A DNA stretch of 64,000 bases, from the NCBI RefSeq assembly GCF_003590875.1, contig NZ_QYUN01000002.1, positions 930,001 to 994,000 on the forward strand, in the 5' to 3' direction. Shown here one piece after another: positions 2-16,526 of this stretch (position 1 is the first letter of the stretch; the number at the start of each line of letters is the position of its first letter). The notes below the pieces were generated by a model, which was not told the DNA's origin, did no database searches, and was given only the letters and a program-made list of their open reading frames with translations. This stretch comes from Noviherbaspirillum cavernae (GTDB lineage: Bacteria; Pseudomonadota; Gammaproteobacteria; Burkholderiales; Burkholderiaceae_D). A program made the translations under genes and the position numbers.

Positions 2-1480
2 AAGCCACGTCTGACCTCGGCGCAGGAGGCGGCCATGGAGTACGTCATTCGCGAGACCTATCTCTCCAGCAAGGCACCTAATGCCAAGCATTGCTACCGG
101 AGCTTGCGTGTGTACTGCGCTCAGCAGGATATCAAAGCCCCGTCATATCCGACGCTGATTGCGCGTATCAAATCCTTGCCGCAACAACAAGCTGACCGGG
201 CGCGCCATGGCAACCGTATCGCGTATCAGAACAGCGAGTTCGTCAATGTACTGTACGCCGATACGCCGATTCATGGTTTGCGTGCTTTCCAGTACGTGCA
301 CATGGACCACACCCAGCTCGACATCGAACTCGTCTCGTTGCGCACCGGCAAGAGACTGGGCCGACCCTGGCTCTCGCTCGCCATCGATGCCTTCACGCGC
401 CGGATTCTCGGCGTCTACCTCTCCTTTGACGCGCCGTCGTATCGCTCGAACATGATGTTGCTGCGTGACATCGTCTACCGCCATCGACGGCTTCCCCAAT
501 TCATTGTGGTTGACAACGGTGCTGACTTCCGTAGCGAGAACTTCGCGCTCGCGGCAGAGATGATGTGCATTCATTTGCGCTACCGCCCGGTCGGCCAACC
601 TCGACACGGCGCGGTGATGGAACGCATCTTTGGGCATATGCACTCGACCTATATCTACAACCTTGCTGGTAACACCAAGGCGATGAAGGAAGTCCGCAGC
701 ACGACTGGCAAGTTTCTGCCGTCGCGACTGGCGGAGTGGACGCTGGAAGCGCTGTATTACGGCATCGAACATTGGGCTTTCACCTACTACGACACAGAGG
801 TGCACTCCGCGCTCGGCATGAGTCCTCGCGACGCCTCCACGCAAAGCGTTGAGGCATCTGGCTTGCGTGCGCATCGCATCGTGACTTTGACAGAGGATTT
901 CCTCATTTTGACGAGCCCTGCAGTCAAGCACATGGGTGGTCAGCGCATTGTGGACAGGCAGCGCGGCATCAAACTGCACAACACTTTTTACTACTGGTGC
1001 CCGGAGTTTCGTGACCCGAAGCTTCACGGCAAGAAGGTTCAGGTGCGCTGCGACCCGTGGGATGCCTCGACGGTCTATGTGCAGGTCGACAAACGTTGGA
1101 TGCCTGCACGCTGCAAGACCCTAGCCAGTCTTGGTCAACTCACCGACAAGGAACGCGAATTAGTGTCCGGGGAGCTGCGCATGCGGTACCGCATGGCTGA
1201 CAACGACGAGCCGTCATTGCAACGCTTGGCGGAGTTCATGCGCACCTTCACGCCGGAAGGCGCCATGGCGCTCGACATGGACCGCCAACAAGAGAACCGC
1301 GAGTTGTATGAGCATATCGGCCGCGGGGCAATTACCAGGCCAACGCCGATAACTCCCATGCTGCAGCGCGCAGAGCCAACTGTTGGCGTATCTAAGGCTG
1401 ACAAGGTGCCACGCTTGGTGCCGGTCGCACTGCCTATGGACTTCACTGACATTGACCCTCTGGACTTCGACACATTCTGA
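2..1480 (+). CDS. tnsB: TnsB-like DDE transposase (Tn7-like element), 5' end outside window
   Basis: This is the DNA-cutting and joining subunit of a Tn7-like transposase. The frame is open from base 2, so the true start lies to the left; the first in-window Met is at 35. Numbering from that Met, an rve/RNase H fold carries D91 (MDHTQLD), D160 (VVDNGADF) and E196 (VMERIFG), a D,D35E triad typical of retroviral-integrase-type transposases. A Mu-C-like beta-barrel region and a basic tail follow. It is 12 bp upstream of the TnsC-like ATPase, and a TniQ gene overlaps that one, giving the canonical B-C-Q order. No TnsA-like endonuclease is visible; one could lie left of the window. TniA of a Tn5053-type element is an alternative name for the same protein family. 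Confidence 0.85.
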   Translation, partial: KPRLTSAQEAAMEYVIRETYLSSKAPNAKHCYRSLRVYCAQQDIKAPSYPTLIARIKSLPQQQADRARHGNRIAYQNSEFVNVLYADTPIHGLRAFQYVHMDHTQLDIELVSLRTGKRLGRPWLSLAIDAFTRRILGVYLSFDAPSYRSNMMLLRDIVYRHRRLPQFIVVDNGADFRSENFALAAEMMCIHLRYRPVGQPRHGAVMERIFGHMHSTYIYNLAGNTKAMKEVRSTTGKFLPSRLAEWTLEALYYGIEHWAFTYYDTEVHSALGMSPRDASTQSVEASGLRAHRIVTLTEDFLILTSPAVKHMGGQRIVDRQRGIKLHNTFYYWCPEFRDPKLHGKKVQVRCDPWDASTVYVQVDKRWMPARCKTLASLGQLTDKERELVSGELRMRYRMADNDEPSLQRLAEFMRTFTPEGAMALDMDRQQENRELYEHIGRGAITRPTPITPMLQRAEPTVGVSKADKVPRLVPVALPMDFTDIDPLDFDTF

Positions 1481-1492
1481 AATTACAAAAAT

Positions 1493-2509
1493 ATGAACCA
1501 CAACACCTACACAAACCCGGCGTCCGCTAGTTCGTCGCTCATTGGTCAACGGATTAAGCATCCGCGTATCGCCACAACTATCGAGGAGTGCCGCCTTATG
1601 CTCGCAGCGGGTAGCAATGCCAATCTGATTTTGCTATGTGGTCCGACGGGTGTCGGTAAAACCACGCTCGGCGACTTCCTCGTTGAGGCTGAACTCAAGA
1701 GCCAAGTCGAAGAGTTGGCAGCAAATCCGGGATGCATCCCCGCTATCCGCGTAGAAGCCCCGGCCTCCGGTGAGAGGGAGTTTTCCTGGCGCTTGTTCTA
1801 CCAACGCATCCTGAATGCGCTGGAAGGAGAGCTCGATGCACCACGCACGGCCTACGGGGTCGACCCGGTAACTGGCCGTGTCGTGCGGCCCGCCGGTCCT
1901 CAAAGCAACCGGCTGTCCGGATTGCGAACGGCTGTAGAACGTTCGTTGCGCAATCGCGGCACCCGATTCATCGTCGTTGATGAGGCCGCTCATCTGATGC
2001 GTCAGTGCCACCCGACCCGGCTCGAGCAACAGCTGGATACGTTGAAATCGTTGTCGAATGAATACGGCGTCCAATGGATTCTGCTGGGCTCTTATGACCT
2101 GTTCGAATTGGTGTCGCTGAGCGGCCAACTGGCCCGTCGCACGCACGTCATTCACTTCGGTCGTTATCGAGAAGACGTTGTCGAGGACGTTCGCGCCTTC
2201 CGTGGCTGCCTGAAGAAGCTGGGAGAATGCATGCCGACCTTGAAGGACGTTGACTTGCTGCGCTACTCGGAGGTCTTCCATCAAAACACGTTGGGCTGCA
2301 TTGGGACGTTGCGTACGCTGTTGATGCGACTTGACCTGTTGGTTGCCGAGAAAGACTGGTCGGAGGAGACGTTGTGCACCGGCCTGTTGACTGAAGCGCA
2401 AGTGACACAAATTTTGCGTGAAATCGTTGAGGGTGAAGAACGCATTGCGCCGGGACTAAAGCGTCACCTCCTCGCTCCCAAGAACCTCCAAGCTAAACGG
2501 GTGGCATGA
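1493..2509 (+). CDS. tnsC: TnsC-like AAA+ ATPase (TniB family), transposition regulator
   Basis: This is an AAA+ ATPase that links the target-selection protein to the transposase in Tn7-like elements. The 338-residue protein has a Walker A motif GPTGVGKTT at residues 50-58 and a Walker B motif VVDEAAH at 161-167, with D163 and E164 positioned for Mg2+ binding and hydrolysis. The sensor-like segment WILLGSYDLFEL follows, as in TniB/TnsC proteins. The length is close to TniB (about 300) and shorter than Tn7 TnsC (about 555), so the long N- and C-terminal TnsC extensions that contact TnsA and TnsD are reduced. Its stop codon overlaps the start of the TniQ gene (ATGATGA), suggesting translational coupling. 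Confidence 0.85.
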   Translation: MNHNTYTNPASASSSLIGQRIKHPRIATTIEECRLMLAAGSNANLILLCGPTGVGKTTLGDFLVEAELKSQVEELAANPGCIPAIRVEAPASGEREFSWRLFYQRILNALEGELDAPRTAYGVDPVTGRVVRPAGPQSNRLSGLRTAVERSLRNRGTRFIVVDEAAHLMRQCHPTRLEQQLDTLKSLSNEYGVQWILLGSYDLFELVSLSGQLARRTHVIHFGRYREDVVEDVRAFRGCLKKLGECMPTLKDVDLLRYSEVFHQNTLGCIGTLRTLLMRLDLLVAEKDWSEETLCTGLLTEAQVTQILREIVEGEERIAPGLKRHLLAPKNLQAKRVA

Positions 2510-3786
2510 TGAATGCGATTCACAATCCCCGTTCTACCCTGCACGCAGTCACGCCCTATGGCGTTAGCACTTCGGACGTTGAAAGCCTGACCAGCTATTT
2601 CTGCCGTGTTGCACACTCGCATAGCATGACTGCGCAGAAGCTGGCCGAGTGGGTACTCAAACACTTTGAACAATCGGTCTGCGAAAAATATTACTGGTAT
2701 CAACGCAACTTCTCGAGCATGTCGGTCGAGAGCGAGCAGTGGGCAGCTTGGCTGGGTGAGCTCACGGGTGTCGGTTCGCTGGACCAACTGACGCTTGCCC
2801 CGTTGCGGAATCTGGTTGGTACGCCGGGGCTCGCGCCGCGCGCTGACCGATGGTGCCCGTGCTGTATCGAGGAAGATAGGTACGAAGGCCGGGACACCTA
2901 TTACCGACTGGCGTGGGACGTAGCACCGGTGACGGCCTGCCTGCGTCACAAGGTGCAGTTGGTCTCGACGTGCCCGCACTGCAATAAGGAAAATGTCCGC
3001 AACCGTGCGGCAATTGTGGTGCCGGGCTACTGCACGTCTTGTGGTGGGTTCTTGGGAGATGCGGAAGCTGAACCGGCCACGCCGGAAGAGTTGTGGGTGG
3101 TTCGCCAGGTCGGACAGACGTTGCAGCAGCGTCCGCAGGTGGCGGAGGATGGTCTGACTTCGTTGTTGGGTGTCGTCATCGAGCGCATGGCAGCCAACAA
3201 TATGGCGACTTTCGCAAAGCAGTATGGCTTTTCGAAGAGCGGCGTATGGCACTGGATGAACAAAGGTGGGTTACCCAGCCTCAAGGCATGGCTGACGATT
3301 GCACTACATGGCGGTATTGGCCTCGACAAGTTATTTGCAGGTGACGTTGAGAGCTGGGTTGTTCCCCGCGAGAAGCCGCAGTTCGAGATGCCACTCTCGG
3401 AATCTCCGCGTGCCGGAATCCGTTCTCGGGAACTGGACTGGGACGAGATTCGTACCAGTCTGATGAAGATGCTGGAGTTGCCGGTGCCAATTTCCATCAA
3501 CGAAGCGTGCGAGCGTGTCGGCGTCGGACGGAAGCATCTTTACTTGCGCGTCAATGCTGAGGCGCGAGCCATTGCTGACCGGTACAGTCGGTATCGGTCA
3601 GAGGTGAGGCTGCAGAAGGAAGTGCGGTTGCGAGAACAAATCGGCGAGATTCTCGATGCACGCCTGGCCGCCGGTTATGAAGGGATGAGTGCGCGCGACG
3701 TGTGGAGTCAGCTCGATGAGCAGGCGCGGTCAGTTGAAAGCGTGTTCCGACACATCAGCGTTGTGATGGCGGAGCGACAGAAATGA
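2506..3786 (+). CDS. tniQ: TniQ/TnsD-like target-selection protein
   Basis: This is a TniQ-family protein, expected to recognise the target site and recruit TnsC. The N-terminal TniQ domain has the usual SYFCRVAHSHSM segment (about residues 30-41). Zinc-ribbon ligands follow: C117/C120 (WCPCC), C145/H148 (CLRH), C156/C159 (CPHC) and C176/C179 (CTSC). Two helix-turn-helix-like segments lie C-terminal, around residues 225-250 (FAKQYGFSKSGVWHWMNKGG) and 330-350 (INEACERVGVGRKHLYLRV). The 426-residue length and C-terminal DNA-binding part favour a TnsD-like, site-specific reader over the short TniQ of Cascade-linked CAST elements. Given the adjacent tRNA-Ala gene, I infer that tRNA-Ala is its target. 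A second ATG at 2509 is an equally possible start. Confidence 0.8.
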   Translation: MMNAIHNPRSTLHAVTPYGVSTSDVESLTSYFCRVAHSHSMTAQKLAEWVLKHFEQSVCEKYYWYQRNFSSMSVESEQWAAWLGELTGVGSLDQLTLAPLRNLVGTPGLAPRADRWCPCCIEEDRYEGRDTYYRLAWDVAPVTACLRHKVQLVSTCPHCNKENVRNRAAIVVPGYCTSCGGFLGDAEAEPATPEELWVVRQVGQTLQQRPQVAEDGLTSLLGVVIERMAANNMATFAKQYGFSKSGVWHWMNKGGLPSLKAWLTIALHGGIGLDKLFAGDVESWVVPREKPQFEMPLSESPRAGIRSRELDWDEIRTSLMKMLELPVPISINEACERVGVGRKHLYLRVNAEARAIADRYSRYRSEVRLQKEVRLREQIGEILDARLAAGYEGMSARDVWSQLDEQARSVESVFRHISVVMAERQK

Positions 3787-3878: not shown

Positions 3879-4337
3879 ATGGGCATGGTCAAGCAGGACG
3901 ACGGCTGGCGTTTGCCAGACAGACTCTGGGCGCAAATGGAGCCGCTTTTACCGCCACGCAAGCCACATCCGCTGGGCTGCCATAACCCGCGTGTCTGCGA
4001 CCGGGCAGCCATGGATGCGATCTTGTTCGTGTTGCGTACCGGTTGCCAGTGGAATGCATTGAACGGTACCGGCATTTGTTCCAGCAGTTCGGCGCATCGG
4101 CGCTTTCAGGAATGGGTTGATGCCGGCGTGTTCGAGGAGTTCTGGATGCATGGGCTGTTGTCGGCAGCGGCGTTGCGGGAAATCGACTGGTCCTGGCTGT
4201 CACTCGACGGCGCGATGACCAAGGCTCCTCTGGGTGGGGAAAAAAATCGGCCCCAATCCAACGGATCGCGGCAAAGGCGGCGTCAAGCGCAGCCTGCTGA
4301 CGGACGCACACGGCATTCCCCTGGCCATCGTCATTGA
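3879..4337 (+). CDS. IS5-family transposase, first frame (orfA)
   Basis: This is the N-terminal part of an IS5-family DDE transposase. It begins MGMVKQDDGWRLPDRLW and continues through the DUF4096-type N-terminal domain with RTGCQWNAL to the first catalytic Asp in LSLDGAMTKAPLGG. Beyond that point the meaningful sequence switches to the +1 frame at a run of seven A's (4240-4246), so the remaining residues of this frame are probably not native. A fused transposase of normal length would result if one A of the run were skipped or absent. Confidence 0.85.
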   Translation: MGMVKQDDGWRLPDRLWAQMEPLLPPRKPHPLGCHNPRVCDRAAMDAILFVLRTGCQWNALNGTGICSSSSAHRRFQEWVDAGVFEEFWMHGLLSAAALREIDWSWLSLDGAMTKAPLGGEKNRPQSNGSRQRRRQAQPADGRTRHSPGHRH

Positions 4338-4704
4338 TGGTGCGAACCGCCATGACATGAAGCTGGCGCGACCGACACTGGAGTCGCTGGAAGTGGGGCG
4401 ACCGTCATTGCTTGCGGTGTGGCCACAAGGACTGTGCCTGGACAAGGGCTATGACTATCCGCAGATCCAGCAGTTGGCGCTTGAATTGGGCTACCGGGCG
4501 CACATCCGGTCACGCGGGGAGGAAGCGCAGCAGCGGCAGACGGGAACGAGAGCCCGCCGCTGGGTGGTGGAGCGTACGCATAGCTGGCTGAACCGGTTTC
4601 GTGGCTTGCTGATTCGTTGGGCCAAGAAGGCGAAGAACCATCTCGCGTTCCTTCATCTCGCCTGCGGCATTATCACCTGGCGAAGCATAGGCCTACTGGG
4701 ATAG
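4234..4704 (+). CDS. IS5-family transposase, second frame (orfB)
   Basis: This is the C-terminal catalytic part of the IS5 transposase. The frame opens at a GTG at 4234 and continues the family signature GPNPTDRGKGGVKRSLLTD. The second catalytic Asp is in LCLDKGYDYP. The Y-R-E-K-type end signature is in WVVERTHSWLNRFRGLLIRW followed by KKAKNHLAF, with the catalytic Glu in VVER. Expression is most likely as a fusion with the upstream frame by programmed or transcriptional slippage at the A7 run (4240-4246), not from the GTG alone. Independent translation as an inhibitor is possible. Confidence 0.85.
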   Translation: MGKKIGPNPTDRGKGGVKRSLLTDAHGIPLAIVIDGANRHDMKLARPTLESLEVGRPSLLAVWPQGLCLDKGYDYPQIQQLALELGYRAHIRSRGEEAQQRQTGTRARRWVVERTHSWLNRFRGLLIRWAKKAKNHLAFLHLACGIITWRSIGLLG

Positions 4705-4733
4705 GCTCTTAGTATCCCGGCTCAGCGCCGAAG

Positions 4734-4764
4734 AAAAACGGGACCCTTGGGTCCCGTTTTTTTA
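4734..4764 (+). terminator. Rho-independent terminator of the transposition operon
   Basis: The stem ACGGGACCC/GGGTCCCGT is followed by seven T's. It lies 26 bp beyond the IS element; without the 912-bp insertion it would follow tniQ closely. Confidence 0.85.
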
Positions 4765-4831
4765 CATCGTTAATCCGCAAAAATACCCAGTGCTCTAGGC
4801 AAAACCCATCAGGCTAGCACGCCACCCACGA

Positions 4832-4903
4832 TAAAACATAATGTGACCAAACGTGAAATAAAGCATAACCCGGCCATCTGGCCACTTTATGCTTTACGGC
4901 ACA
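4832..4903 (+). mobile_element. Putative right end of the Tn7-like transposon, with three 17-bp TnsB-site-like repeats
   Basis: Three copies of a motif close to TAAAGCATAAnnyGGCC are present: 4832-4848 (TAAAACATAATGTGACC), 4859-4875 (TAAAGCATAACCCGGCC) and, inverted, 4880-4896 (TAAAGCATAAAGTGGCC on the minus strand). The inverted copy leads to CGGCACA at 4897-4903; read inward this gives a TGTGCCG terminus, matching the 5'-TGT of Tn7-like ends. The point is 28 bp from the 3' end of tRNA-Ala. The call is inference: the other end lies outside the window, so no target duplication can be verified. The opposite orientation of the terminal copy is unlike the uniform direct repeats of Tn7 itself. 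Confidence 0.55.
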
Positions 4904-4931
4904 TGTTCGGTCATTCCTGCATGGCTGATGT

Positions 4932-5007
4932 TGGTGGAGCGGAGGAGGATCGAACTCCCGGCCTTCGCATTGCGAACGCGACGCTCTCCCAGCTGAGCTA
5001 CCGCCCC
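4932..5007 (-). tRNA. tRNA-Ala (anticodon CGC)
   Basis: This 76-nt gene includes an encoded CCA. The cloverleaf closes well: acceptor GGGGCGG/CCGCUCC with the G3:U70 pair that defines alanine tRNAs, D-arm GCUC/GAGC, anticodon loop UUCGCAA with CGC at positions 34-36, and T-arm GGGAG/CUCCU around UUCGAUC. It is transcribed leftward, so its 3' end faces the apparent transposon end 28 bp away. The gene is intact, as expected if the transposon inserts downstream of its target gene as Tn7 does with glmS. Confidence 0.95.
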
Positions 5008-10742: not shown

Positions 10743-12416
10743 ATGGCATTCAACCGCCGTTCGAAAAACGTCACGCAAGGCGTGGCCCGCAGCCCGAATC
10801 GCTCGATGTATTACGCGATGGGTTATCAGAAGGAAGACTTCGACAATCCGATGATCGGCATTGCCAACGGCCACTCGACCATCACTCCCTGCAACTCCGG
10901 CCTGCAAAAGCTGGCAGATATTGCCATCAAGACCGTCAAGGAATCCGGCGCGAATCCGCAAGTGTTCGGCACGCCGACCATTTCCGACGGCATGTCGATG
11001 GGTACGGAAGGCATGAAATTCTCGCTGATTTCGCGCGAAGTGATCGCCGACTGTATCGAGACGGCGGTCAATGGCCAGTGGATGGATGGCTGCGTGGTGA
11101 TCGGCGGCTGCGACAAGAACATGCCGGGTGGCATGATCGCCATGGCGCGTACCAATGTACCCAGCATCTACGTCTACGGCGGCACCATCAAACCGGGCAA
11201 ATGGAAGGGACAGGACCTGACCATCGTGTCTGCGTTCGAAGCCGTCGGTGAATTTACCGCTGGCCGCATGTCGCAGGAAGATTTCGAAGGCGTGGAAAAA
11301 AATGCCTGTCCGTCTTCCGGTTCCTGCGGCGGCATGTACACCGCCAACACCATGTCCTCGTCGTTTGAGGCGCTCGGCATGTCGCTGCTGTATTCCTCGA
11401 CCATGGCCAACCCGGATGACGAAAAGGTCGGCTCGGCCGCCGAATCCGCGCGTGTGCTGGTGGAAGCAGTCAAGCGCGACCTGAAGCCGCGCGACATCAT
11501 CACCCGCAAATCAATCGAGAATGCAGTCGCCGTGATCATGGCAACCGGCGGCTCGACCAATGCGGTGTTGCACTTTCTGGCGATTGCCCATGCCGCCGAG
11601 GTGGAGTGGACCATCGACGATTTCGAGCGGATGCGCCGCAAGGTTCCGGTGATCTGCGACCTGAAGCCGTCCGGCAAGTATGTCGCGACCGATCTCCACA
11701 AGGCCGGCGGCATTCCACAAGTGATGAAGATTCTGCTGAATGCCGGTCTGCTGCACGGCGATTGCATGACCATTACCGGCCGCACCATGGCGGAAGAGTT
11801 GGCGAACGTGCCGGACGTGCCGCGCGCCGATCAGGACGTGATTCGCACGATTGACAAGGCGCTGTACGATGAAGGACATCTCGCCATCCTGAAGGGCAAT
11901 CTGTCGCCGGACGGCTGCGTCGCCAAGATCAGCGGTTTGAAGAATCCGGTCATCACCGGACCGGCGCGCGTGTTCAATGACGAATACTCTGCGATGGACG
12001 CGATCCTTGCCGACAAGATCAAGGCAGGCGACATCCTCGTGTTGCGCTACCTCGGCCCGAAGGGCGGACCGGGCATGCCGGAAATGCTGGCGCCGACTTC
12101 CGCCATCATCGGCAAGGGCTTGGGCGAGTCGGTCGGACTCATTACTGACGGTCGTTTCTCCGGCGGCACCTGGGGCATGGTGGTTGGTCACGTTACACCG
12201 GAGGCTTTTGCTGGCGGCACCATCGCCTTGGTGCAGGAAGGCGACAGCATCACCATCGACGCGCACCAGCAATTGATCCAGCTGAATGTGGCGGACGAAG
12301 AAATCGCCCGTCGCCGTGCGAACTGGAAAGCGCCTGCGCCGAAGTACACGCGCGGTGTGCTGGCGAAGTTCGCCGCGCTGGCTTCGCCGGCAAGCAAAGG
12401 GGCAGTCACGGGCTGA
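10743..12416 (+). CDS. ilvD: Dihydroxy-acid dehydratase
   Basis: This enzyme dehydrates 2,3-dihydroxy-3-methyl(valer/butyr)ate to the 2-keto acid, the third common step of valine, isoleucine and leucine synthesis. With the start at 10743 it is 557 residues, the usual length. Fe-S ligands are evident at C50 (TITPCNSG), C123 ([10 protein letters not shown]) and C195 ([11 protein letters not shown]), the three-cysteine pattern of this family. The C-terminal [14 protein letters not shown] segment is also conserved. The longer in-frame extension upstream lacks family similarity; GGAGGCCTC just before 10743 supports this start. It stands alone with its own terminator and a divergent LysR gene. Confidence 0.96.
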
Positions 12417-12433
12417 TTGACTTTGTGCAAATG

Positions 12434-12462
12434 AAAAGGCCGGAGCGATTCCGGCCTTTTTT
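12434..12462 (+). terminator. Terminator after ilvD
   Basis: AAAAGGCCGGA/TCCGGCCTTTT forms a stem with a short loop followed by T's. The A-rich 5' side also allows it to serve the convergent small gene. Confidence 0.88.
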
Positions 12463-12491
12463 GTTTTGCATGTTGAAGTATGACGTGCAGT

Positions 12492-12716
12492 CTATTTTTT
12501 GAATGTCTTTTTGACACGCTCTTGTCGTGCTTTCTCCAGCTGCTCTGCCGCCTTGCGCTTGTCCAGTCCGAACATTTTCTCGATGAATTCGAACCACACG
12601 AAAGCAAGCGCAAACAGGCCCGCGACCCACCACCACGACAAATCGGCGAACAGTCCGATCTCGAAAAATCGCAGCAATGACAAAGCGACAATAAGAACAA
12701 TTAACGGCATATGCAT
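12492..12716 (-). CDS. Small Trp-rich membrane protein (TIGR04438-type)
   Basis: This 74-residue protein has an N-terminal membrane segment (PLIVLIVALSLLRFFEIGLF), a Trp cluster (LSWWWVAGLFALAFVWFEF) forming a second membrane helix, and a highly charged C-terminal tail (DKRKAAEQLEKARQERVKK). It matches my recollection of the TIGR04438 'small Trp-rich protein' family of betaproteobacteria. The function is unknown. It converges on ilvD and has its own short upstream region. Confidence 0.7.
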   Translation of the reverse strand: MHMPLIVLIVALSLLRFFEIGLFADLSWWWVAGLFALAFVWFEFIEKMFGLDKRKAAEQLEKARQERVKKTFKK

Positions 12717-12885
12717 TCCTTTGAATCAAGCATATTGTGAACGAGTGTAACGGTCAATCGAGACTGTCAACGCGCTGTTTCGGCCCGGAGTTATAGGGAG
12801 GCATGCTGTGTTTTTTGCGCGAATGCCAAGCTTGATTAAAACAGAAACACGGTAGAATCACCCAGTCATCATTTTGGAGAAGGTA

Positions 12886-13194
12886 ATGAAACGTTCCTTG
12901 TTGCTTTGTTTGGCTTTTGGCACACTGATTTCCAACGCGGCGATGGCGAATGCCGATCTGGCAAAAGCGAAGAACTGCATGGCCTGCCACGCGGTGGCAA
13001 ACAAGGTGGTCGGCCCCTCATTCAAGGACATTGCCGCGAAATACGCGGGTCAGAAGGATGCGGAAGACAAATTGACACAGAAAGTGTTGAAGGGAGGCAG
13101 CGGTGTGTGGGGCGCGGTCCCGATGCCGGCTAACGCACAAGTCAGCGACGCCGAAGCGCGCACGCTTGTGAAATGGGTGATGTCGCAGAAATAA
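12886..13194 (+). CDS. Class I cytochrome c (c551/c552 type)
   Basis: This small periplasmic electron carrier has a Sec signal peptide (residues 1-21, ending AMA), a haem-binding motif CMACH at residues 31-35, and the distal Met ligand M80 in GAVPMPANAQVS. The mature size is about 81 residues, as in cytochromes c551/c552 that donate electrons to cytochrome oxidases or nitrite reductase. The ATG at 12886 follows GGAGAAGGTA; an in-frame TTG 12 bp upstream is less likely. It is monocistronic with its own terminator. Confidence 0.9.
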   Translation: MKRSLLLCLAFGTLISNAAMANADLAKAKNCMACHAVANKVVGPSFKDIAAKYAGQKDAEDKLTQKVLKGGSGVWGAVPMPANAQVSDAEARTLVKWVMSQK

Positions 13195-13212
13195 CGATAC
13201 CCGACCCGTTCA

Positions 13213-13243
13213 AAAAGCGCTCTGATGAGCGCTTTTGTTTTTT
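13213..13243 (+). terminator. Terminator after cytochrome c gene
   Basis: The stem AAAAGCGCTC/GAGCGCTTTT is followed by a T-rich run. Confidence 0.85.
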
Positions 13244-13266
13244 GCAGGACACACAAGAAAGCGCAT

Positions 13267-13300
13267 AAAAAAACGCCCGATCCGAAGACCGGGCGTTTTC
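13267..13300 (-). terminator. Terminator after the amino-acid binding protein gene
   Basis: AACGCCCG/CGGGCGTT forms the stem, with seven A's on the left giving a T tract on the minus strand. It lies 23 bp past the stop codon. Confidence 0.85.
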
Positions 13301-13323
13301 ATGTCGAGGCGTGTGCTGATTGA

Positions 13324-14469
13324 TTAGCGCACCACAGCGATCTGTTCGCGCTTGCCACCCTTGTAGGTGTACAGCGTCAGTGCGCCGTTCTTGATGTCGC
13401 CCTTGGGGTCGAACACGATCTGGCCGGTGACGCCCTTGTAGTTGATCTTCGCCAGTTCCGGCAGATACTTGGCCGGATCGGTGGAGTTGGCTTTCTTCAT
13501 CGCTTCCACCATCACCAAGGTCGCGTCGTACACATACGGTGCATAGATCTGCACCTCGGTGCCGAACTTCTTCTTGTAGGCGGCACGGAAGTCTTCCATG
13601 CCTTTCTTCTGTGCGTCTTCCACGCCGCCGGCTTCGGCGCACACTACCTGTCCCTCGCCGAGTGCATCGCCCGCCAGCTTGATCAGGCCTTCGGTGCAGA
13701 CGCCGTCGCCACCCATGAACTTGGCATTGATGCCCAGCGCCTTCATCTGGCGCAGCATCGGACCGGCCACTGCATCCATGCCGCCGAAGAACACGACGTC
13801 CGGATTCTTGGCCTTGATCGCAGTCAGAATCGCATTGAAGTCGGTCGCCTTGTCGTTGGTGTATTGCTGGGCCACCACTTGCACGCCCTTGGCCTTGGCA
13901 CCCTTCATGAATTCATCAGCCACGCCTTGGCCGTATGCGGTACGGTCATCAATCACGGCCACTTTCTTGGCGCCCAGCTTGTCGGCTGCGTAGCGGCCCA
14001 GCGTGCCGCCCAGCTGGCCGTCATTGGCGACCACGCGGAACGCGGTCTTGAAGCCTTGTTGGGTGTATTTCGGGTTGGTAGCGGACGGAGAGATTTGCGG
14101 GATGCCGGCGTCGTGGTAAATCTTGGAAGCCGGAATGGTGGTGCCGGAGTTCAGGTGACCGATGACGCCGTTGATCTTGGCATCGACCAGTTTCTGGGCA
14201 GCGGAGGTACCTTGTTTCGGGTCGGCCGCATCGTCTTCGGCCAGCAGTTCAAACTTGACCTTCTTGCCGCCGATCGTCAGGCCCTTGGCATTCAACTCCT
14301 CGATGGCCATGCGAGCGCCGTTTTCATTGTCTTTTCCGAGGTGAGCGATGGGGCCGGAGATCGGGCCGACGTGGCCGATCTTGACGACTTGTTCCTGGGC
14401 GAAAGCAGCACCTGCAAAGGCAAAGGCCAGAGCGCCTGCCAGCGGGATCATTTTTGTTGTGACCTGCAT
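13324..14469 (-). CDS. livK: Branched-chain-type amino-acid ABC transporter binding protein
   Basis: This periplasmic substrate-binding protein of the Leu/Ile/Val-BP family has 381 residues. A signal peptide ends AFA at residue 24. The type I fold begins QVVKIGHVGPISGP and includes SGTTIPASKIYHDAGIPQIS, a ligand-contact region, and the hinge AVIDDRTAYGQGVADEF. No permease or ATPase genes are adjacent, so it either uses distant partners or serves an unlinked transporter. A strong ribosome site (GGAGGGT) precedes the ATG. A divergent Lrp-type regulator and nearby dadA hint at alanine or another neutral amino acid as ligand; this is inference. Confidence 0.85.
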   Translation of the reverse strand: MQVTTKMIPLAGALAFAFAGAAFAQEQVVKIGHVGPISGPIAHLGKDNENGARMAIEELNAKGLTIGGKKVKFELLAEDDAADPKQGTSAAQKLVDAKINGVIGHLNSGTTIPASKIYHDAGIPQISPSATNPKYTQQGFKTAFRVVANDGQLGGTLGRYAADKLGAKKVAVIDDRTAYGQGVADEFMKGAKAKGVQVVAQQYTNDKATDFNAILTAIKAKNPDVVFFGGMDAVAGPMLRQMKALGINAKFMGGDGVCTEGLIKLAGDALGEGQVVCAEAGGVEDAQKKGMEDFRAAYKKKFGTEVQIYAPYVYDATLVMVEAMKKANSTDPAKYLPELAKINYKGVTGQIVFDPKGDIKNGALTLYTYKGGKREQIAVVR

Positions 14470-14615
14470 AAAATACCCTCCTAAGGATTGAAAAAATACA
14501 AGGTTACTGCAACACTCACCTATTCAGATTTTCTGAACAAGCAGACGGTACAACATAAAAAACTGTTAGCAAAGAGTTTTCATATGGTTTTTTTGAAAAT
14601 TCATGACTTTTCTCT

Positions 14616-15125
14616 ATGCCTAAATTTCATGTCCTGGACAAGGTTGATCGCAAGCTGTTGAACCTTCTGCAGAAAGACAATCAGATCCCCACTCGCACTT
14701 TGGCCGAAAAAGTGCATATCTCCCAGCCCACCTGCCTGCGCCGCATTCGCGACTTGCGCGCGGCGGGGATTATCAGCGCGGACGTTGCCATGGTCGATCC
14801 ATTTGCACTTGGCTACGGCATGCTGGCGTTTCTTGAAGTGTCGTTGAACAACCAATCCGACGAACACATGCAGGAATTCGAAGCGCGCATGGCCAAGGAG
14901 TCCGAGGTCATGCAGTGCTATTTCGTCTCCGGGGACTATGACTATTTCCTGGTGGTCCATGTCATCGATATGGATGCCTACTATCAATTCGTGCGGCGCG
15001 TCATCTCAGGATCGGGAAATGTGCGGCATTTCCAGTCCAGATTTCCGATGAAACGCGCCAAATTCGCCACCCGCGTCGCCTTTGACGAAAAGCTTGCAGA
15101 GGTGCAAGTGCGCGTCTCCAAATAA
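14616..15125 (+). CDS. Lrp/AsnC-family transcriptional regulator
   Basis: This 169-residue feast/famine regulator has an N-terminal HTH (LNLLQKDNQIPTRTLAEKVH then ISQPTCLRRIRDLRAAG) and a C-terminal RAM domain (residues about 70-150; MAKESEVMQCYFVSGDYDYF) that binds amino acids and makes dimers/octamers. It lies divergently from the livK-like gene (146 bp between starts) and converges on dadA. In other proteobacteria Lrp homologues (DadR, Lrp) activate dadA, so control of D-amino-acid catabolism is likely. Confidence 0.9.
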   Translation: MPKFHVLDKVDRKLLNLLQKDNQIPTRTLAEKVHISQPTCLRRIRDLRAAGIISADVAMVDPFALGYGMLAFLEVSLNNQSDEHMQEFEARMAKESEVMQCYFVSGDYDYFLVVHVIDMDAYYQFVRRVISGSGNVRHFQSRFPMKRAKFATRVAFDEKLAEVQVRVSK

Positions 15126-15147
15126 TTCTTATACCCCTATAACGCAG

Positions 15148-15193
15148 ATGCGCCCCGAGAGATGACAGATTCTCTCGGGGCGCATCGGTTTTT
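15148..15193. terminator. Bidirectional terminator between lrp-like gene and dadA
   Basis: A perfect 14-bp stem, ATGCGCCCCGAGAG/CTCTCGGGGCGCAT, with a 10-nt loop lies between the two convergent stop codons. T's follow on the plus side. Confidence 0.85.
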
Positions 15194-15209
15194 CAGCACT
15201 GCAAGCTTG

Positions 15210-16526
15210 TTATGCTTGCTGTGGCCGGGAAGCACTGATCTGGCCCGGTACTCGGCGCGGCATGCCCGTAAATGCGAAGTCCACTTCCGGTTGACGACCG
15301 GATACGATTTCCGCAATGGCGCGGCCGGAACCGCAGCCCATGGTCCAGCCCAGCGTGCCATGACCGGTATTGAGGTACAGGTTGCTGAATCTGGTCTTGC
15401 CGATGTACGGCACGTTGGACGGTGTCAGCGGGCGCAATCCGGTCCAGTAGGTCGGATTCTCATAGTCGCATGCGTCGGGGAACAGTTCGCGCGTGCGGCG
15501 GGTGATTGCCTCACAGCGCCTCGTGTTGAGCTCGCGTGTGTACCCGTTCAGCTCGCAGGTGCCGGCCACGCGCAGGCGATCGCCCAAGCGGGATACCACC
15601 AGCTTGTAACCGTCATCGGTCAGCGAAACGGTCGGCGCTGCGTCCGGATTGGTGACCGTATAGGTGGCGGAGTAACCCTTGCCCGGATAGATCATCAGGT
15701 CGACGCCCAGCGGCTTCAGCAGCGGCACGGAGAAGCTGCCCATTGCCATGACGAAAGCGTCGGCGCGCAGCACTTGATGGCGGCCTTCGGGGTCGATGAT
15801 TTCGACGCCGGTGACTTTGGCCGATGCGCCACTGCCTTCGGTCAGCAAGCGGGTGATCGTGGTGTTGAAGCGGAAATCGACGCCGGCTTCCGCCGCTTTG
15901 CCGGCAAGGCCGGTTGTGAATTTGTAAACATCGCCCGACTCGTCGGTGGCGGTGAAATCGCCGCCGACGATCTTGTCGCGGATTCTTGCCAGAGCCGGTT
16001 CGATGCGCACGACTTCATCGGCGCTGATCGAGTCGCGCGGGCAGCCGAGATCGCGCATCAGCTTCGCGGCAGGCAGCGAATCGTCGAACTCCTTTTGCTC
16101 GGTATAGAAATGCAGAATGCCGCGTGTCAGTTCGTCATAGGCAATGCCGGTCTCCGCGCGAACCGCTTGCAGGGTCTGGCGGCTGTATTCGCAGATCGCG
16201 ACGATCTGGCGGATGTTGTCGTCGGTGCGGGCCGGTGTGCACTCGCGCAGAAAGTTCAGGCCCCAGCGCCATTGCAGCAGTTCCGGGCGGAGGCGAAACA
16301 GCAACGGCGCGTCTTCCTTGCCGAGCCACTTCAGGACTTTCATCGGAGCGGCGGGGTTCGCCCAGGGTTCGGCGTGCGATACGGAAATCTGGCAACCGTT
16401 GGCAAAGCTGGTTTCCTGCGCCACGCCCGGCTGGCGTTCCAGTACCGTGACGTCATGCCCTGCCTTGTTCAAGAACCACGAAGAAGCCGTGCCGATAATG
16501 CCTGAACCTAATACGATGACTTTCAT
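15210..16526 (-). CDS. dadA: D-amino-acid dehydrogenase small subunit
   Basis: This FAD enzyme oxidatively deaminates D-amino acids (mainly D-alanine) to keto acids and passes electrons to the respiratory chain at the inner membrane. The 438-residue length is typical. The N-terminal FAD motif is VIVLGSGIIGTASSWFL (residues 3-19); the DAO-type region includes ETSFANGCQIS and the C-terminal GLRPLTPSNVPYIG and NTGHGTLGWTMGCGSG, all diagnostic of DadA. No alanine racemase (dadX) adjoins it. The Lrp-type gene across the terminator is a candidate regulator. Confidence 0.95.
   Translation of the reverse strand: MKVIVLGSGIIGTASSWFLNKAGHDVTVLERQPGVAQETSFANGCQISVSHAEPWANPAAPMKVLKWLGKEDAPLLFRLRPELLQWRWGLNFLRECTPARTDDNIRQIVAICEYSRQTLQAVRAETGIAYDELTRGILHFYTEQKEFDDSLPAAKLMRDLGCPRDSISADEVVRIEPALARIRDKIVGGDFTATDESGDVYKFTTGLAGKAAEAGVDFRFNTTITRLLTEGSGASAKVTGVEIIDPEGRHQVLRADAFVMAMGSFSVPLLKPLGVDLMIYPGKGYSATYTVTNPDAAPTVSLTDDGYKLVVSRLGDRLRVAGTCELNGYTRELNTRRCEAITRRTRELFPDACDYENPTYWTGLRPLTPSNVPYIGKTRFSNLYLNTGHGTLGWTMGCGSGRAIAEIVSGRQPEVDFAFTGMPRRVPGQISASRPQQA

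Follow-up and report, generated by a model that had tools for sequence, protein, structure and literature searches.

The stretch between positions 4832 and 4903 of the window (the whole 64,000-nucleotide stretch of DNA that was analysed, C2:930001-994000 of the 4.66-Mb genome) represents, with high confidence, the target-proximal end of a Tn7-like transposon which carries a TnsAB-TnsC-TniQ operon and whose TniQ would home to tRNA-Ala(CGC). An earlier note had proposed that a TniQ/TnsD protein may use this tRNA gene here, and not glmS, a view that sequence comparison with relatives supports.

Right end, operon and cargo of the element

The genes and sites leading up to the right end are arranged as follows (positions of the window):

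2..1480, + strand: C-terminal part of tnsAB (fused TnsA-TnsB transposase, 895 aa; gene start at C2:928793, outside the window)
1493..2509, + strand: tnsC (AAA+ ATPase of the TniB family, 338 aa; Pfam AAA_22, TniB)
2506..3786, + strand: tniQ/tnsD (426 aa; Pfam TniQ), putative selector of tRNA-Ala(CGC)
3879..4704, + strand: IS4/5-type transposase in two overlapping frames, 3879-4337 and 4234-4704 (Pfam DUF4096, DDE_Tnp_1)
4832..4848, + strand: end site R3, predicted TnsB site, pointing outward (TAAAACATAATGTGACC)
4859..4875, + strand: end site R2, predicted TnsB site, pointing outward (TAAAGCATAACCCGGCC)
4880..4896, - strand: terminal end site R1, predicted TnsB site, pointing inward (TAAAGCATAAAGTGGCC)
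4897..4903: transposon terminus CGGCACA (inward reading TGTGCCG)
4904..4908: TGTTC, the expected 5-bp target duplication, right side
4904..4931: spacer of 28 bp from the terminus to the tRNA 3' end
4932..5007, - strand: tRNA-Ala(CGC), intact, CCA encoded, attachment gene (ARAGORN; Rfam RF00005)

Three copies of a 17-bp motif had been placed in the earlier note at 4832-4848, 4859-4875 and, inverted, 4880-4896, together with a CGGCACA ending at 4903 and a tRNA-Ala 3' end at 4932 behind a gap of 28 bp; all of these features were confirmed at those positions. The end sites and the gene content are directly observed, the order toward the right end being tnsAB, tnsC, tniQ, the IS4/5-type transposase and then the terminus.

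The fused TnsA-TnsB transposase is present: the full TnsAB protein (L008:13793-16480) contains the Pfam domains Mu-transpos_C, HTH_Tnp_Mu_2, rve and TnsA-like N (scores versus cut-offs of 38.4 versus 21.7 bits for Mu-C, 26.4 versus 32.6 for rve and 25.0 versus 26.5 for TnsA-like N) and matches PDB chain 9bw1_M near full length (phmmer E=1.1e-135, residues 6-859). TnsC matches 8fcu_Q (phmmer E=2.9e-43), and its gene overlaps by 4 bp with that of the long (>400 aa) TniQ/TnsD in the same operon. Residues 8-389 of TniQ align with the TnsD chain 8v32_J (E=1.9e-30), and the AlphaFold2 model of TniQ (mean pLDDT 85, pTM 0.66) superimposes on this chain of a TnsD-TnsC-DNA complex over 459 alignment columns (E=5.7e-23, TM 0.60), the TnsD fold being matched along the full TniQ length at a sequence identity of 21%. 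Assignment to Tn7 proper was rejected, since tRNA-Ala and not glmS lies beside the end and TnsAB is fused. A third TniQ gene of the genome (C2:794489-794929, - strand, L009) has no tblastn match to the window TniQ in the surrounding 20 kb and no tRNA there.

The cargo, which likely includes defence genes, comprises (i) LmuA-, LmuC- and LmuB-like proteins (Lamassu defence system) and (ii) a 1491-aa helicase-nuclease resembling PDC-S37 and Hhe, and also ProA, the latter below the NCBIfam cut-off. The Cas effectors and array of a CRISPR-associated transposon (CAST; types I-B2, I-D, V-K) were not found: no Cas domains occur among the left-part proteins scanned (12 with Pfam and 10 with PADLOC, a subset of the ORFs), and no CRISPR-like direct repeats occur in the element.

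A sibling element in the same genome ends 29 bp from the CCA end of tRNA-Ser(TGA); its TnsAB and TniQ are 48% and 39% identical, respectively, to those of the window element (aligned parts). With a weight matrix trained on the right-end copies of both elements, 120 kb of the same chromosome were scanned on both strands. Six matches exceeded 17 bits, three of them being the window copies from the training set and the other three (C2:911035, 911122 and 911152) untrained matches at the left end, so that the right-end motif is more than a chance resemblance. The 17-mer TGTGCCGTAAAGCATAA with at most one mismatch has two sites in the 4.66-Mb genome, one in the window and one in the sibling (C2:2146054-2146070); at up to three mismatches, seven matches compare with nine for the reversed control over the whole genome, and only near-exact matches are therefore meaningful. 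The left end of the sibling was not found in C2:2095001-2146070 (~51 kb upstream), neither by matrix clusters nor by CTTAA+TG[TC].

Targets of related elements

The window TniQ served as query against 294 genomes of the family, 399 of the order and 369 of the class (at 1e-12, the class-level search returned only the window's own genome), and a 12-row TniQ profile against 13, 117, 299 (phylum) and 43 genomes, these draws overlapping and being samples of larger groups. Further TniQ rows came from genome contigs, IMG/VR and plasmids; named host genomes among the matches are Trinickia and Caballeronia (Burkholderiales type). Position in the tree and possession of the common end motif defined the close family of 22 rows; 11 distant rows were used as outgroups, and weaker or partial matches (e.g., L045-L048, L138, L140) were left out. 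Right end and flank were readable in 19 of the 22 rows, those left out being G1059 (second left end), L141 and G627 (no end found in the available sequence).

All 19 ends, that of the window element included, have a minus-strand terminal site and a TG-type terminus, and in each case a tRNA or tmRNA gene, or a fragment of one, on the opposite strand has its 3' end 26-31 bp from this terminus; this fixed distance is a direct observation. The targets are:

tRNA-Ala(CGC): 4 rows
tRNA-Ser(TGA): 5 rows
CAT-anticodon tRNA (Met or Ile2): 4 rows (L044 with a 3' fragment only, labelled by resemblance)
tmRNA: 6 rows (L142 with a 3' fragment only, Rfam E=1e-9, below the gathering score)

The target gene is intact in 17 of the 19, L044 and L142 lying beside 3' fragments only. 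Three relatives with TniQ proteins 59-68% identical to that of the window use the same tRNA-Ala(CGC) gene at 26-29 bp in other genomes, bringing the window-type TniQ at this gene to four genomes. In six of the 11 outgroups, tRNA-Ala(CGC) or tRNA-Ser(TGA) lies on the downstream side of tniQ, and in the other five (G668, G475, G268, G239, L144) no tRNA was seen within 2 kb downstream; element ends of these five were located in L144 only.

The TniQ tree unites the Ala rows of the family in one clade (100/100) and the Ser rows in another (99/91). The CAT rows fall inside a 99/99 group together with G627 (target unread), their own node being weak (92/85, then 67/32 with two more rows and without most of the outgroups). 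The tmRNA rows occupy three places in the tree, or two if fragment L142 is set aside; a single tmRNA clade for all six rows was rejected (AU p = 6e-57, a value qualified by long branches, by a group named after the tree was seen and by L142 being labelled from a 3' fragment). In the TnsC and TnsAB trees (fewer rows, quick search), Ala and CAT rows again stand together and Ser rows do not form one group. Judged from the TniQ tree, the target follows the TniQ clade, with tmRNA recurring, and from this directly observed pattern we infer that insertion is directed by TnsD bound to the tRNA gene. The pattern fits tmRNA as the common state, in which case three changes suffice for the four targets (family rows, unrooted tree), with the caution that distant relatives sit at tRNA-Ala.

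The TniQ proteins of L042 and L043 are identical in 413 of 432 positions (96%) and are found beside two distinct CAT tRNA genes, one of 88 nt and one of 76 nt; over the last 29 bp these genes coincide in 26 positions, and further inward the similarity is lost. This suggests, but does not prove, that TniQ recognises the T-arm/acceptor end, since CCA and the T loop are common to all tRNA genes and 26 of 29 is therefore little above background (18-24 among 134 pairs of different target types, mean 20.7; 23-29 among 37 pairs of the same type). The same zone is also favoured by the tmRNA targets, as tmRNA shares T arm and acceptor end with tRNAs and has no anticodon arm, and the 3' fragments next to L044 and L142 agree with it. 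According to PMC12585508, the nearest solved TnsD bends its att DNA by means of an arginine that intercalates at a CC/GG step; steps of this type are present in the targets here, all 19 of which start with TGG[TC]GG (part of the search pattern).

In the mechanism proposed, TniQ (a TnsD) would bind the tRNA-Ala(CGC) gene at its 3' end, probably in the last ~30 bp comprising the acceptor 3' strand and the T arm, and would then recruit TnsC, whereupon TnsAB, with its TnsB part presumably occupying the repeat arrays, would insert the element ~28 bp beyond CCA. Such an insertion would place the right end facing the tRNA, keep the tRNA gene intact and create a 5-bp duplication. Related TniQs would send their elements to tRNA-Ser(TGA), CAT-anticodon tRNAs or tmRNA at the same distance.

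The earlier note had considered that the sequence at 4832-4903 might be conserved beside tRNA-Ala in relatives devoid of the transposon; the right end was, instead, found in 2 of 15 congeneric genomes, both with a close TniQ. The tRNA-Ala(CGC) flank of these 15 genomes displays the window-type right end in two (G000, G141), another end-like pair in two (G162, G184) and neither in 11. No TniQ related to that of the window at E<=1e-3 was detected in G162 and G184, and their end-like pairs may therefore be remnants. In G162 (L115), the sequence that is homologous to G000 as far as C2:909682 stops 295 bp short of tRNA-Ala, indicating that most of the intervening 25 kb is an addition in the window's genome. 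G162 was rejected as a clean empty site, since a different right-end-like pair lies between.

The variability of this flank among congeners (of 13 congeners, one has the gene that neighbours the site in the window's genome at 295 bp from the tRNA, five have it 4-10 kb away, and in seven it was not found within the stretch examined) would suit a tyrosine-integrase island that used the tRNA, with the Tn7-like end as its passenger and the proximity merely incidental, as would the two family members beside tRNA/tmRNA 3' fragments, which integrase islands can leave. This explanation is extremely improbable in view of the constant gap of 26-31 bp with the tRNA always on the opposite strand (19 of 19), the intact target gene in 17 of 19 and the 5-bp duplication that relatives have directly at this terminus. 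Very little probability is likewise assigned to RNA-guided homing, in which a guide RNA of the element would pair with the tRNA gene in the style of type V-K. One candidate would be the rare structured RNA RF02932, encoded in both elements of this genome:

L007:4420-4537 = C2:914420-914537, - strand: RF02932 (Betaproteobacteria-1), inside the window element
L010:3932-4048 = C2:2138932-2139048, + strand: RF02932, ~1.7 kb upstream of the sibling tnsAB

RF02932 is also present in the element loci L043, L044 and L143, i.e., in five family loci altogether, and near two distant Tn7-like operons (1.6-2.3 kb from the tniQ matches in G068 and G058), and V-K CASTs home to tRNA genes by crRNA, as stated in part of PMC11406308. 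Against this, the longest element-target match is 12 nt for the window element and 11 nt for the sibling (9.1 kb tested), no longer than in 40 site shuffles, none of the five RF02932 RNAs has more than 8 nt in common with its own target, CRISPR-like repeats are absent, and TniQ matches a full-length TnsD. Moreover, RF02932 does not reach the gathering score in the complete element G127 or in the scanned stretches of G141, G194, G099, G456, G1073, G1119 and L042. Protein-directed homing by TniQ is the preferred reading.

RF02932 occurs in 7 of 145 genomes of the family. It is treated here as cargo, because no protein gene is conserved beside it across 11 loci compared (six only ~3 kb long) and no Tns match lies near it in G077, G022, G018 and G087; it may represent a Tn7-associated cargo RNA. 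No literature was found under the name Betaproteobacteria-1. Near this RNA, both elements share a 314-bp segment of 93% identity (C2:913858-914167 and 2138380-2138693); the rest of the two elements is 68-83% identical, plus an inverted piece of the 314-bp repeat at 84%. A small DUF6471 gene (L010:5389-5658, - strand) is located upstream of the sibling tnsAB and divergent from it; its product is possibly a regulator. Related genes stand close to tnsAB in L043 and L044, and the left part of the window element contains a weaker relative.

Left end, flanking sequences and opposed end sites

A left end flanked by TGTTC had been predicted from the right end. The left end itself was found at C2:911006 (TGTGCCGTTAAGTAT, TGTGCCGTTAAGTATTTCCCGCCC), outside the window and 23.9 kb away, but it is preceded by CTCAA in place of TGTTC. 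The window element accordingly spans C2:911006-934903 (23.9 kb), with three transposase-type sites at the right end, four at the left end (all pointing inward, the outermost weak with 9 bits) and TGT...ACA termini. As the two flanks differ, the 5-bp duplication is absent in the window copy; searching ~105 kb of the chromosome arm for an alternative left end with TGTTC+TG[TC] yielded one match, which did not fit the terminus pattern.

Perfect 5-bp duplications are directly observed in three relatives, G127 (TGCTT), G099 (CGTGC) and G1073 (AGGCC), whose termini beside the duplication belong to the set CGGCACA, CGGGACA and CGTCACA. These three are the only relatives with both termini found, the window element being the fourth such case. 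Left ends flanked by a matching duplication were not found in the available sequence of G141, G1118 (left end truncated, two sites only), G456, L042, L043, L044, L143, G194 and G1119; the search left out G582, G172, L142, G1423 and G1439. The G1073 element (L147) has ~5.6 kb between its ends, a perfect duplication at tmRNA and no TnsAB by tblastn, and is possibly non-autonomous.

Since family relatives have the duplication and the window copy does not, the latter may not be a single intact insertion. It is probably a chimera, with left and right ends that stem from different insertions. Repeated insertion into one site does happen, as the G127 element lies within an older right-end copy and G1059 (L134, ~1427-1672) has a right end followed 4 bp on by another left end of the same family, i.e., tandem elements. 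That the window copy is instead one transposition unit, the duplication of which was erased by mutation, is rather unlikely: just one left and one right end are present and the length of 23.9 kb is close to those of G127 (27.3 kb) and G099 (25.5 kb), but CTCAA and TGTTC bear no resemblance to each other, and serial insertion is known from G127 and G1059.

The inverted terminal copy, which the earlier note had singled out as deserving attention, does merit it, the inverted pair being kept in the family and in more distant elements. R2 and R1 form this pair with a start-to-start spacing of 21 bp. Eight of the 19 family sites were examined: seven have the pair in register with arms matching in 12-16 of 17 positions, and in the eighth (L063) the best pair is in another register, though the R2/R1 sites are present. 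Pairs at 20-22 bp beside a tRNA recur, with different core motifs, in distant TniQ elements and end-like remnants (L076, L081, L082, G476, G440, G1121, L115, L117), and 0-3 of 200 single-base shuffles reach them. Eleven congeners have no such end at the site; nine of them have no such pair, and two have one at other offsets (L123, reached by 7 of 200 shuffles; L125, by 1 of 200). In L144, a cyanobacterial plasmid relative, the end sites read +, -, -, the first with 4 mismatches; an opposed pair may thus exist there too, with the middle site reversed. The L144 element (Allocoleopsis franciscana pMIC7113.03, ~11206-16310) measures ~5 kb, with TnsAB, TnsC and TniQ as the only genes listed between its ends; CRISPR-type repeats lie on either side of it, next to a type III-B cas locus.

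An opposed pair could also be a transcription terminator or hairpin, or an insulator of tRNA versus transposon transcription, in place of a pair of transposase sites. R2/R1 does fold as a single-stranded DNA hairpin (z -4.5), and a weak minus-strand terminator match overlaps the pair, at the chance rate for the region (3 found, 1.8 expected). This function is nevertheless improbable: with arms matching in only 12-16 of 17 positions in seven family members, R2/R1 is not kept as a perfect hairpin, R3 represents the same motif without a partner, and the left end repeats this motif in a single orientation. Transposase binding sites, as predicted for R1-R3, are the preferred reading.

Taken jointly, these results allow the tentative reading that one TnsD lineage reads a ~30-bp T-arm/acceptor code of tRNA and tmRNA genes and was switched between tmRNA, tRNA-Ala, tRNA-Ser and CAT tRNAs by small protein changes, and that the target-proximal end consists of opposed transposase sites, so that end identity may follow site orientation. 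It is held as possible rather than probable, the control with pairs of different targets having lowered our confidence in it.

Relation to known Tn7-like systems

Homing of TnsD to tRNA genes is already known from CASTs of types I-B2 and I-D, and the window element is a member of this known kind without detected CRISPR parts and with its own target set. The interesting part is the wider family, the window copy itself being without duplication. TnsD of tRNA-homing elements is a protein-only, site-specific DNA inserter, and related TnsDs with four natural targets make a TnsD recognition code directly testable, to which the near-identical TniQs of L042 and L043 add by being found at two tRNA genes alike only in their last 29 bp. 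For the tRNA-homing TnsD subfamily, the review PMC11406308 cites Hsieh and Peters (2022). No TnsD homing to tmRNA was found in the literature searched (without Hsieh and Peters 2022 and Saito 2021), and tmRNA, if confirmed as a TnsD site, would be an added target; the sections of PMC10121019 considered here list phages, satellites, integrative elements and transposons among the users of a hotspot at the tmRNA locus and do not mention TnsD.

According to parts of PMC11406308, tRNA-homing Tn7-like elements are the stock of two CRISPR-associated transposon types, the origin of I-D and I-B2 CASTs lying in a subfamily whose TnsAB is fused and whose TnsD makes use of different tRNA genes; insertion downstream of tRNAs is also noted in PMC8649781. 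The window family shares with the relatives of CAST I-B2/I-D the fused TnsAB, TnsC, the long TnsD/TniQ and the attachment beside different tRNA genes. It differs from them by its occurrence in Burkholderiales-type genomes and by its targets (tRNA-Ala(CGC), tRNA-Ser(TGA), CAT tRNA and tmRNA), and the window element also by having no CRISPR-like repeats and no Cas among the scanned proteins.

The closest solved proteins are TnsD, TnsC and TnsAB-type chains of the type I-B CAST structures PDB 8v32, 8fcu and 9bw1. In view of PMC12585508, we take 8v32 and 9bw1 to belong to Tn7744/PmcCAST (type I-B2), which provides the closest solved TnsD and TnsAB by sequence and an equal best TnsC; in contrast to it, the window element has no Cascade, and its TniQ is 21% identical in the structural alignment. 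Tn7745/CyCAST (type I-D) is alike in that its TnsD homes just downstream of a tRNA gene, measured at 30-33 nt downstream of tRNA-Leu in the part of PMC10293859 concerned, and possesses a CRISPR-Cas I-D system, whereas none was found in the window element.

With Tn7 (glmS) the window element has in common the TnsD insertion at a fixed distance past the 3' end of a conserved gene, the TGT-type terminus and, in its relatives, the 5-bp duplication. It deviates from Tn7 by another attachment gene, the fusion of TnsA and TnsB, the opposed end sites and an operon transcribed toward the target-proximal end.
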